From a bacterium (GTDB lineage: Bacteria; Bdellovibrionota_C; UBA2361; RFPC01): a stretch of DNA of 33,631 bases. Both the position numbers and the translations under genes were made by a program. The notes beneath the pieces were generated by a model. The model searched no databases and was not told where the DNA came from. It worked only from the letters and a program-made list of their open reading frames with translations. The stretch covers positions 1 through 33,631 of the forward strand of contig RFPC01000022.1 of the NCBI GenBank assembly GCA_009926305.1, in the 5' to 3' direction. This document shows positions 30,528 to 33,631 of the stretch, piece after piece (the first letter of the stretch is position 1; each line of letters opens with the position of its first letter).

Positions 30528-31652
30528 ATGAGTGACTTCTTTTCTTACACAAGAGCTGAGTTAGAGGACTTTCTCACCTCCACACTATCACTCCCACGTT
30601 ATCGAGCAGATCAGCTATTTCAATGGATTTATCAAAAACGAGTATTTAATCCTGAGCAGTGGACGAATATCGGTAAGCATGATCGGGCTCGGCTAGCAGA
30701 TGCCTTCACCTTTCCTCGATTAGAGCCGAAATATCGTGCGCTGTCATCTGATGGAACACGGAAATACCTGTTCTCGGTTGGAAGTGAGGATGAGGTTGAA
30801 TCAGTGATGATAAAACAACCTGCACGGATGACTCTCTGCGTATCCTCGCAGGTCGGCTGTGCCCTGGGATGTAAATTTTGTCAGACCGGAACCATGGGGC
30901 TCAAGCGCCACTTATCACAGAGTGAGATTCTCTCTCAGGTTATGGGGGTTGTGGTAGATTCGACTCAAAACTTTCAGGATATGTTTTCGAATATGGTTTT
31001 CATGGGAATGGGAGAGCCGTTCCACAACTATGACGGTGTTACAAGAGCTATTAGTATTTTAAATGATGTTCACGGGCTCGCTCTGCCAAGTCGTAAAATT
31101 ACGGTGTCTACTGCTGGACTTGTTCCAGCCATAAAGCGGTTCTTCGAGGAGGGAGTTGGGGCCAATCTCGCGATATCGCTCAATGCCACTACTAACAAAG
31201 TTCGTGATGAGATTATGCCCATCAATCAACGCTATCCACTGGAAGAGCTCTTAGGCACCCTCCGTAGCATTGATGTTCCACCGAGAAAGCGTATTACGAT
31301 GGAGTATGTAATGCTGCGTGGAATAAACGATACCGAAGAAGACCTGAATAGACTCCCGTCCTTGCTAAAAGGCATTCCGTGCAAGATAAACCTCATTCCC
31401 TACAACTTTAACACGGGCCTTGGATTTGATGCTCCAACTGAAACGACTTTACACCGCTGGCAGAAAGCACTGATGAGGCACAACTTCGTTGTGACGATTC
31501 GTTGGTCGAAAGGACGCGACATTGATGCGGCATGTGGGCAGCTCGTGACGAAAAGCCGTAGGGAAAAGCGGCAGCACAAAGTTGACGCTCCCCCTTCAGT
31601 TCAGGGAAAAGCACCTGAAAGCAGTAGCCTCTCGGTTCTTAACTCGCGATAG
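30528..31652 (+). CDS. rlmN: Dual-specificity 23S rRNA / tRNA adenine C2-methyltransferase RlmN
   Basis: Radical-SAM enzyme that methylates C2 of A2503 in 23S rRNA and A37 in some tRNAs. 374 aa. The 4Fe-4S motif C-x3-C-x2-C is in GCALGCKFCQTGTMG (C111, C115, C118). The two methyl-carrying cysteines are present: C104 in TLCVSSQVG and the C-terminal one in DIDAACGQL (near 337). Also seen are FMGMGEPFHNYD (SAM-binding GEP) and ISLNATTNKVRDEIMPIN. The last 30 residues after QLVTKSRREKR are a non-conserved tail. Divergent from the ECF sigma gene across 163 bp; no operon partner on its strand. Confidence 0.96.
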   Translation: MSDFFSYTRAELEDFLTSTLSLPRYRADQLFQWIYQKRVFNPEQWTNIGKHDRARLADAFTFPRLEPKYRALSSDGTRKYLFSVGSEDEVESVMIKQPARMTLCVSSQVGCALGCKFCQTGTMGLKRHLSQSEILSQVMGVVVDSTQNFQDMFSNMVFMGMGEPFHNYDGVTRAISILNDVHGLALPSRKITVSTAGLVPAIKRFFEEGVGANLAISLNATTNKVRDEIMPINQRYPLEELLGTLRSIDVPPRKRITMEYVMLRGINDTEEDLNRLPSLLKGIPCKINLIPYNFNTGLGFDAPTETTLHRWQKALMRHNFVVTIRWSKGRDIDAACGQLVTKSRREKRQHKVDAPPSVQGKAPESSSLSVLNSR

Positions 31653-31845
31653 TGCAGCCATATCTCCGAATTCCTTTCTGAATCCTCGAGTCGCCCACCT
31701 TAGTTCCTACAGAGAAGTCAGAAAATATCGAAAAATACCAATATTATTAGCGAGATACTCATCTGAATTCATATCAGGAAACTCTTTTCGCTAAGTGGTG
31801 ATTAACTCCTGTACGTGGTCACGTGCGTACTTGGGGGGATGTTTC

Positions 31846-32403
31846 ATGAATACAGTACCTGAAATGGATGACGAGTATAGTAATGAATATGAGCAATACC
31901 TTTTAATCGTAAAGCGGTACGCACAGAAGTTCTCTTCCCGCTCCTCGCACCCAGAAGAGCTCAGAGAAGAGCTTTTCTCGATAGGGACCCTTGCCTTTTT
32001 AGAAGCCTTTGAGCGGTACAAATCTTTCACAGAAATTCATCGAATCAGAGCTTTATCACTGAGAATAAGAGGAGAGATGATTGATTATCTCGCTAAATCA
32101 AAAAGACAGCGAGAACGCTTTATTAGTACAGAGTCCAAAGAGTCTGCTTCAAGGAGAACCGGTCCAGAATATCGTCATATCCTTTCTGACATTCGTTCGA
32201 AATTAGAAGCTGGATTTCAAAATCTCACCTATGAAGAGCGCTTGATTCTTCAGAACTTTCTAACCGGTAAAGAAAAATACCGGGTGAGAGAGATCTCGCC
32301 GTCAAGTAGAACAAAGATAAAGCAAAGAGCCTTTAAGAAACTCCGGAAGCATCTTTCTTTTAAGTACGAGAAAACTGAACTATTCAGCATACTGGCTGAG
32401 TAG
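31846..32403 (+). CDS. Short sigma-70 family protein (FliA/WhiG-like region 2, degenerate region 4)
   Basis: 185 aa from the ATG at 31846, preceded by GGGGGA; the open frame reaches 31795. The first half resembles sigma region 2, with LREELFSIGTLAFLEAFERYK (core-binding) then RIRGEMIDYLAKSKRQRERF, close to the RIRGaiLDeLR segment of FliA and SigB-like factors. There is no convincing region 3. The C-terminal part (NLTYEERLILQNFLTG, then SPSSRTKIKQRAFKKLRKHL) looks like a reduced region 4 in which the -35-recognition helix is basic but divergent. It may be an alternative sigma factor or a sigma-like regulator. No anti-sigma gene is adjacent, and there are no flagellar or sporulation genes in the window. 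Confidence 0.72.
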   Translation: MNTVPEMDDEYSNEYEQYLLIVKRYAQKFSSRSSHPEELREELFSIGTLAFLEAFERYKSFTEIHRIRALSLRIRGEMIDYLAKSKRQRERFISTESKESASRRTGPEYRHILSDIRSKLEAGFQNLTYEERLILQNFLTGKEKYRVREISPSSRTKIKQRAFKKLRKHLSFKYEKTELFSILAE

Positions 32404-32460
32404 CGGCTCCTCCCACGGCATCCTCACTATCGCCTCAGGGACGTAGGGTGAATCCCCTAC

Positions 32461-32491
32461 AAAAAAAGAAGCTGCTACCTGATTACTGGGG
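32461..32491 (-). repeat. REP-like repeat, copy 1
   Basis: On the minus strand it reads CCCCAGTAATCAGGTAGCAG followed by a short stretch ending in seven T residues. It matches copy 2 (32776-32806) at 27 of 31 positions in the same orientation. It lies exactly where the transposase remnant loses similarity to its family, so it probably marks one end of the element. Confidence 0.65.
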
Positions 32492-32727
32492 ATATTCTCA
32501 ATGAACTCATCACTATTACCCCGAGGGGCTTTAATAAGTAATAAGGAGGTGCATGTGGTTTGAAAGGATAGTGTAGGCGTATATCTCTATCCCGAGGAGC
32601 TCTTGGTAGCGAGCCATGATGCCTCCTATGAGCTTTGTATTCTTAGCAGTAGGCATACAGCTCGTACCGTGCGGGTGGTAATGAGGCGGTAAAGAGACGG
32701 GTCTTTGGTTCGTAGTGGATTTCCCAT
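32461..32727 (-). pseudogene. Decayed RAYT-like (Y1/HUH) transposase remnant
   Basis: Read on the minus strand from the ATG at 32727 the frame gives MGNPLRTKDPSLYRLITTRT and then loses the family pattern. The pattern resumes in another frame as LIGGIMARYQELLGIEIYAY followed by TILSNHMHLLI, where HMH is the HUH metal-binding pair. A third frame gives IKAPRGNSDEFIEN. The second shift is explained by a 7-base tandem duplication (TTATTACTTATTA). The sequence ends abruptly in a repeat, so the C-terminal half with the catalytic tyrosine is gone. The order of motifs matches REP-associated tyrosine transposases as I know them. It cannot make a working protein. Confidence 0.7.
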
Positions 32728-32775
32728 GACAGAGTGTTAATCGGAGGGGGTCCTCTGATAGTTCGTGAGTATGAG

Positions 32776-32806
32776 AAAAAAAGATGGTGGTACTTGATTA
32801 CTGGGG
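32776..32806 (-). repeat. REP-like repeat, copy 2, at the broken end of the GNAT gene
   Basis: On the minus strand it reads CCCCAGTAATCAAGTACCAC followed by a short stretch ending in seven T residues. It is 27/31 identical to copy 1, in direct orientation. The acetyltransferase gene loses family similarity precisely at its CCCC and stops at the TAA within it. It lies 48 bases upstream of the transposase-remnant ATG. Confidence 0.65.
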
Positions 32807-33184
32807 GACACGAAAGATCTCTTTTTGTGCTAGGGCGAGTCTGACGAGATGACGCGCTGCTTCGGTGGCATAACCATTTCCCCAGAAACGTTTGGCGATC
32901 ACGTAGCCAATTGTTACGGAATGGTCCTCTGGAACGAGTGAAATCGCTCCTAGGAGCATAGAGTCAGAGCTCCTTACTATGAAATATTCGAAGCACTCGT
33001 TCCTGTCCCATTGGTTGAGCATCTCTGCCAAATATTCCCTCGTATCTTCTCTAGTAGTCGGAGATGGCCATGCGACATAGGTGGTAACGTCTGGATCTGA
33101 GGCATAGTCAAACACAAAGTCTGTCTCACTCAATACAATCTTTCGAAGAATTAGCCGTTCTGTTGTGAGTCGTGTTGGATACAT
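32798..33184 (-). pseudogene. GNAT acetyltransferase (RimJ/RimL-like), C-terminally truncated
   Basis: 128 aa from the ATG at 33184 (the frame opens at 33274 but YPTRLTTERLILRK is the usual N-terminus). N-acetyltransferases of this group transfer acetyl from acetyl-CoA to a protein N-terminus or small molecule. The acetyl-CoA loop is present in a divergent form (YVIAKRFWGNGYATEAARHLV). The protein stops right after LALAQKEIFRVPQ, where relatives run on for about 40-50 residues with the last strand and the N-x-x-S-x-x-x-x-E-K-x-G motif. The missing end coincides with a repeat copy, so an insertion probably truncated it. Function is doubtful. Divergent from proS. Confidence 0.75.
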
Positions 33185-33352
33185 CGTATTACTGGCACGA
33201 AAGTCTCTAAGTGGTGAGTAGTTCGCATTCAAGCGAAGTACAAAATAGCATGAAATCACCCTCATCAGAAGCAAGCAATCATTTTATAATTGCAGTCCTA
33301 ATTTTTTACTGTCAGTATCTCAAGTTTCACTTGCCGAGGAGGCTAGACTGAT

Positions 33353-33631
33353 ATGCGCCAATCGAGACACATTGGGAGGACTTCGAGGGATGTCCCCCGA
33401 GACGCTCGCACAGCCTCACACCAACTCATGTTGCGTGCTGGCTACATGAAACAGATTTCAGCAGGTGTCTACTGTTACCTTCCGTTACTTCATCGAACCC
33501 TTATGAAAATCTCGAATATAGTTCGAGAGGAGATGGATGCGGCTGGTGCACAAGAACTTCTCATGACAGCACTACAACCGAAGGAGCTTTGGGAGGAGTC
33601 GAAGCGATGGGAACGATACTCAGATATTGAT
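33353..33631 (+). CDS. proS: Prolyl-tRNA synthetase, N-terminal fragment (continues past window)
   Basis: Class II synthetase charging tRNA-Pro. The frame is open to the last base (93 codons). The start is the ATG at 33353, with AGGAGG ten bases upstream. Residues [20 protein letters not shown] and [20 protein letters not shown] are the typical bacterial ProRS N-terminus, including the class II motif 1 helix, followed by [14 protein letters not shown]. The editing (INS) domain, if any, would lie beyond the window. It is divergent from the truncated GNAT gene across 168 bp from that gene's preferred start. Confidence 0.93.

Follow-up and report, generated by a model that had tools for sequence, protein, structure and literature searches.

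Organization of the locus

Near the right end of the window (by which we mean the whole stretch of DNA analysed, 33 631 nucleotides), rlmN and a sigma-factor-like gene are followed on the minus strand by the remnant of a RAYT-like transposase gene and by a GNAT acetyltransferase gene, and then by the start of proS, a name given by homology to a protein encoded on contig C25 of the same genome (Table 1). Two 31-base repeats, R1 and R2, lie on either side of the remnant and its leader in direct orientation, with 27 of 31 bases identical (87%), just as the original prediction had described them, and with a start-to-start spacing of 315; the outer tip of R1 (32491) abuts the truncated transposase frame and the tip of R2 meets the GNAT frame. 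Two different proS genes are present in the bin (78% amino acid identity over 93 residues), one at the end of the window's contig and one complete on C25 (L021:11098-12840); either a paralogue or a mixed bin would account for the pair.

Table 1. Features at the right end of the window (positions in the window)
Feature	Position	Strand	Remarks
rlmN	30528..31652		
Sigma-factor-like gene	31795..32403		
R1, left repeat, solo-type end unit	32461..32491	-	on the minus strand: CCCC tip, AGTAATCAGGTAGCAGCTTC, T-run
RAYT-like (Y1/HUH) transposase remnant	32492..32727	-	first ~80 codons from ATG 32727; stops short of the catalytic tyrosine
Open piece of the transposase with the HUH motif	32531..32656	-	41 aa
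7-base tandem duplication	32532..32545	-	shifts the transposase frame
HUH motif NHMH in the remnant	about 32549-32560	-	
Short deletion	32657..32661	-	second frameshift; relative to the C112 and C25 sister copies, in which the frame is open
Transposase leader	32728..32775	-	from end repeat to start codon; conserved at least partly on C112, C25 (two), C141, C96 and C132
R2, right repeat, transposase-side (left) end of the element	32776..32806	-	on the minus strand: CCCC AGTAATCAAGTACCACCATC T-run, with one tail unit
GNAT acetyltransferase gene, C-terminally truncated	32798..33184	-	128 aa from ATG 33184; last codons and stop from R2
proS, start	33353 onward		

The GNAT product covers positions 1-112 of the 138 positions of the Acetyltransf_3 profile, and five out of six aligned relatives extend about 55-65 residues further (the sixth lies within a 370-residue frame). 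Its similarity to these proteins ends at the outer tip of R2 and the stop codon lies inside this repeat, confirming the earlier claim that the gene is truncated exactly there. A residual GNAT C-terminus was sought in 31701-32830 and none was found (the best chance match had an E-value of 0.19). The gene is patchy in its distribution, with a match at E<=1e-8 in 6 of 17 genomes (own genome counted) but in 0 of 4 other genomes of the genus or family; among these relatives no intact orthologue of the window gene was found. On C25, a left-end piece of the element (L021:11001-11127) abuts the 3' end of the proS gene and apparently gives it its last codons and stop, like R2 at the GNAT gene.

In profile searches, the 41-aa open piece of the transposase matches Y1_Tnp with an E-value of 0.0036, which is below the curated cut-off, and the read-through 80-mer matches Y1_Tnp (E 5e-4) and REP_Tyr_transpos (E 5.5e-5), both again below cut-off; the 80-mer is 46-63% identical to full-length proteins of related genomes. 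A RAYT-like remnant with an HUH motif, broken by two frameshifts of which one is a 7-base duplication, had been proposed from the letters of the DNA, and this description holds, the other frameshift being a short deletion. Because the remnant stops at about codon 80, ahead of the catalytic tyrosine (position 119 in the full-length homologue L133), the copy in the window is dead.

A dispersed family of end repeats

The original prediction expected the repeat to occur many times in the genome, and it does: the core GGTACCTGATTACTGGGG, allowing up to 3 mismatches, is found at 33 sites in the genome of the window (G000; 2.99 Mb in 281 contigs), versus 0 for a reversed-pattern control. The similarity between R1 and R2 is therefore no chance: both are confirmed members of a dispersed, genome-wide repeat family. 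BLAST of 32440-32830 against the same genome gave 40 matches at E<=10, ranging from the region itself down to similarity no better than chance. Sister copies of the leader and transposase N-terminus account for the longer matches, on C112, C25 (two), C141 and C96; C132, with a shorter match, carries the leader alone. The C-terminal half of the transposase (residues 81-309 of a relative) was found nowhere in the assembly save in a distant paralogue on C2. Since the assembly has no full-length copy of the transposase, the element can be seen entire only in other genomes. The ends of several contigs fall within it (C112:1, C96:8273, C132:1 and C111:5910), so an intact multi-copy version was perhaps lost in assembly or binning. 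The C2 paralogue (L130:2279-3241) is itself complete (320 aa) and shares 29% identity with the full-length homologues L072 and L133. Contigs C85 and C136 have identical 99-base starts (L023:1-99 and L033:1-99) and diverge at the end repeat, marking assembly branch points.

The two repeats in the window represent two end types. The type of R1 (the GCAGCTTC side) is the one seen in solo copies, and the type of R2 (the CACCATC side) is the one seen on the RAYT leader. Short solo units with the R1 end type (GGTAGCAGCTTC) are found on C111, C88 (two), C51, C96, C110 and C136, and the exact R1 31-mer recurs on C111 (2375-2405) between unrelated flanks; the same end type also precedes transposase genes of the clade in G011 and G043 (the G043 frame runs off its contig). 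Given their different end types and shared direction, R1 and R2 do not make up the pair of ends of a single element: R2 is the element's own transposase-side end, and R1 is a separate short end unit of the same family in the same orientation.

In the genome of the window the leader-side end reads, on its strand, CCCC-(N)-TCARGTACCACCATC-TTTTTTT. A right-end family has the opposite orientation and terminates in the same sequence; its bodies carry GTGTATCTA in a GGGAGAG..CTCTCC setting, and in other genomes 4 of 13 full-length loci have this motif 13-18 bases past the stop codon, compared with 2 of 443 control windows. The 31-base repeats are the ends of an element flanked by inverted repeats (GGTACC-A[CG]..TC-T5). 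Mini-elements with two opposed ends are found on C112 (~340 bases, with two right-type ends), C132 (~250 bases) and C141 (~400 bases), and also in G004.

The end motif GGN[AT]CCA[CG] is present in outward orientation within 150 bases upstream of 7 out of 17 clade loci (missing in 10) and in inverted orientation within 300 bases downstream of 8 out of 13 loci with a stop codon, five of these 13 having it on both flanks; among control windows, each of 150 bases, 14 of 274 have it. L133 has the left one with one mismatch. The motif was derived mainly from the repeats of G000, and some of the counted loci had been seen beforehand. In G043 only one of six loci has it. In G004 (JAUIIO010000003.1) the region from 143.3 to 148.8 kb holds one full element (C44:147523-148783) together with further copies of the ends and short left-right pairs. 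At this locus (L133; G004:C44:143300-148800) the element and end copies are crowded within ~5.5 kb of the transposase gene, and more copies lie on C24; the crowding resembles the local gatherings of REPs near rayt genes reported in PMC2817692.

Tandem tails and folding

Beyond the GTACC border, the outer 14-18 bases are present two or three times in 13 of the 30 judged ends of the genome. These 30 were what was left, by eye, of 38 regular-expression matches (14 with repeated tails) after ends with no tail or core had been dropped (C22:709, C22:5662, C25:10372 in the numbering of L021, C96:4334, C110:5116, C68:4195, and both C39:3502 and C39:2541 in the numbering of L132). Tail units are 0.94 identical within a copy (16 pairs) versus 0.59 between copies (703 pairs), the latter value being lowered because all 38 ends entered the calculation. 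Tail units have thus been multiplied locally. Longer tandem units are also seen: 44 bases on C88, 54 bases on C96 and 40 bases in G004.

Single repeats do not fold (R2, 0 kcal/mol; R1 with flanks, z -0.28), and on this ground a REP hairpin is rejected for the 31-base repeats. The claim that they are REPs did not survive in its strict sense: single copies have no hairpin, there is no GTAG-plus-palindrome arrangement, and inverted ends flank the full-length relatives. Doubled tails show weak folding: among five multi-unit stretches that were folded, three gave z-scores of -2.9 to -4.0 and two gave -0.6 and -1.3. A foldback of 4-6 bp is possible in many, not all, of the doubled GGTACC tails (those on C32 and C136 have no palindrome), which leaves a hairpin function as no more than a suggestion. 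A search of 32200-33631 against Rfam gave no match to a structured RNA at E<=1.

Full-length transposases in other genomes

Full-length homologues of the remnant, 287-319 aa long, are found in related MAGs and reveal what the window copy is missing. Homologues at E<=1e-5 occur in 19 of 45 same-class genomes (own genome included and distant ones counted), the closest being 59-63% identical over the remnant piece. A scan of named genomes with L133 as query gave 13 loci, of which 10 share 41-100% identity with it; the titles of these genomes call them MAGs of Oligoflexia, Deltaproteobacteria, Pseudomonadota or just a bacterium. The HUH and tyrosine residues (N59, H60, H62 and Y119) are invariant in 10 sequences of the family. 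Three out of five full-length relatives score above the cut-off of Pfam Y1_Tnp, and four relatives reach 52-67 bits against NCBIfam REP_Tyr_transpos, below its cut-off of 80.

The Escherichia coli TnpA-REP structure (4er8) is the best solved relative by sequence (E 3.7e-7) and ranks first by fold in Foldseek; its VIA-align alignment with the predicted model (mean pLDDT 83.2) has a Z of 15.0 and an rmsd of 2.5 over 157 aligned residues, and the next listed row has 8.8. Five full-length proteins, searched whole, gave no Pfam match at E<=1 to Bac_DnaA_C, HTH_23 or HTH_28, the C-terminal HTH domains expected of TnpA-Y1 subclass 2.1; the model has long helices at 187-211 and 248-273. The clade is marked by a W motif, W[GSA], and a Y motif that is mostly Y[IVT]xxN[PAS].

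Comparison with known systems

Systems of the RAYT/REPtron and REPIN kind (Nunvar et al. 2010, PMC2817692; see also Bertels and Rainey 2011, PMC3116915) share several traits with the clade: the transposase fold (4er8), inverted repeats on the two sides of the gene, a clustering of repeats in its neighbourhood and, as proposed, mobilization of repeats in trans. They differ in their ends, those of the clade being without a GTAG tag and without a hairpin. In the surveys, RAYT genes have inverted REPs on their flanks (Nunvar et al. 2010, PMC2817692); TIRYTs are a subset of RAYTs with other inverted repeats, which sometimes form moderately abundant families whose copies stand singly, in pairs or in groups (Di Nocera et al. 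2013, PMC3733652); and most TIRYTs fall in TnpA-Y1 subclass 2.1, in which no REPs were found (Quentin et al. 2018, PMC6006769).

The TIRtron/TIRYT is the nearest kind in the literature, and the clade would, by its sequences, work like a TIRtron: both have a RAYT-like tyrosine transposase gene between inverted repeats that lack GTAG, and both form dispersed families of single, paired and grouped copies. They also differ. The motif GGGGWSAS, given for some published TIRs, shows no enrichment in the clade (0 of 17 upstream regions, 1 of 13 downstream regions and 2 of 27 own-genome copies; control, 7 of 274); the clade ends have GGTACCA[CG], a T-run and tandem tails of 14-18 bases, although the same type may be among the sequences of Figure 9 of PMC3733652; and the two repeats of the window copy are direct, not inverted. 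Within the TnpA-Y1 classification (PMC6006769), the clade has a class 2-like core, a long protein with a C-terminal extension like subclasses 2.1 and 2.3, and, in common with 2.1, lacks REPs. Its W and Y motifs differ from those of subclass 2.1 (YIELNP or Y[IV]HLNP, with W[EQ]/FQ), and no row of Table 1 of that survey fits. IS200/IS605 transposases share the HUH motif and the single catalytic tyrosine, but here the protein is long, the end repeats are inverted, and the structural match is weaker (Z of 8.8 or less versus 15.0 for TnpA-REP).

In the published literature, with supplements and figures outside its scope, our search found nothing on GGTACC-type ends or tandem tails. The 2013 and 2018 surveys (PMC3733652 and PMC6006769) leave the targets of REP-less RAYT relatives open. 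Taken by itself, the copy in the window would be nothing more than a common dead remnant. Little is understood of RAYT relatives that lack REP hairpins, and ends, border hexamer and tandem tails that can be read in several genomes offer a concrete candidate cleavage site; the window also shows such elements eroding neighbouring genes.

History of the locus

The feature is probably a degenerate 5' piece of a mobile element of the RAYT/TIRYT type (an HUH single-tyrosine transposase gene with outward-facing inverted end repeats on its two sides), seated where the 3' end of a GNAT gene is broken off. By analogy with its family, the intact transposase would cut single strands beside the border GGTACC in the end repeats, joining them to new sites; acting in trans, it might move complete elements, mini-elements with internal deletions, and solo end units. 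We favour as the most economical history one in which the element would have landed in or at the GNAT gene, a solo end unit (R1) would then have landed in its transposase gene, and one deletion from behind R1, ending 57 bases from the sigma-like gene, would have taken the 3' part of the transposase, the far end of the element and the 3' part of the GNAT gene. The original prediction of an insertion into the GNAT gene with later loss of the 3' half thus stands as to the truncation at the repeat, and is not supported as a simple insertion: since no GNAT C-terminus was found beyond the repeats, the gene must either have undergone an extra deletion or have been broken before the element arrived. 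None of 36 relatives, one of the same genus included, has a DNA match to the locus, and a degenerate repeat pattern gave no match in genome_contigs or viral_contigs (records of the own genome may be left out of these).

Several other explanations bear on the same observations. A classical REPtron, with the 31-base repeats as REP palindromes of a canonical RAYT, would agree with the RAYT-like transposase, with the REP_Tyr_transpos scores of its relatives and with repeats that are multi-copy and sometimes clustered; we hold it to be quite unlikely, as the single repeats do not fold, no GTAG-tagged palindrome is seen, those scores stay under the cut-off and the ends are inverted repeats with GGTACC. 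Unequal exchange or slippage could have made the direct repeats, the piece between them being a chance remnant and the GNAT gene degenerate beforehand. Their direct orientation suits this origin, as do the 40-54-base tandem units on C88, C96 and in G004, which tell that local duplication occurs; R1 and R2, however, are of two end types, differ at 4 positions, and have exact or near-exact twins elsewhere with unrelated flanks, so that they look like independent arrivals, and we find this origin improbable.

We give about the same low weight to one-ended transposition, by which pieces anchored at the transposase-side end would be inserted directly, with variable far ends (~113, 199 and 315 bases), no far end repeat and no later deletion. 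The two C25 copies and the window copy do share this end, differ in where they stop inside the element and have no far end nearby, and G004 has a 134-base left-end piece; but the C141 and C132 copies, with similar inner breaks, have a far end and are explained by ordinary internal deletion, and the break in the window falls exactly at the tip of another repeat. An assembly artefact, a misjoin at a repeat, is very unlikely: repeats did break the assembly, as the contigs that end inside the element indicate, and the bin has two proS genes, but the junctions on the GNAT side and on the sigma-gene side lie in unique DNA and both repeats lie within one 33.6-kb contig. Beyond the favoured history of insertion, solo-unit landing and one deletion, a broader joint reading can be put forward, which we consider doubtful as a whole: the non-palindromic ends would grow by reiterating the 14-18 base tail between GTACC borders, end units multiplying in place; the HUH clade responsible would stand outside the published TnpA-Y1 subclasses, here in MAGs of Oligoflexia/deltaproteobacterial type; the doubled GGTACC tail could fold back on itself over a short length; and pieces anchored at the transposase, their far ends variable, would be inserted without a second end, in a one-ended, rolling-circle-like manner.

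Distribution of the end pattern

Across 45 genomes of the class, a general end pattern (up to 2 mismatches) is at or near its reversed control in most, G010 being below it (8 versus 29), and it is therefore no class-wide feature. Counts are clearly above control in G000 (31 versus 4), G004 (31 versus 5) and G034 (20 versus 4), and more weakly so in G043 (17 versus 5), G044 (12 versus 3) and G003 (9 versus 2). In G034, which belongs to another family, end-like sites (GGTACCAGCCTCTTTTT) are found on many contigs and the transposases are only distantly alike.
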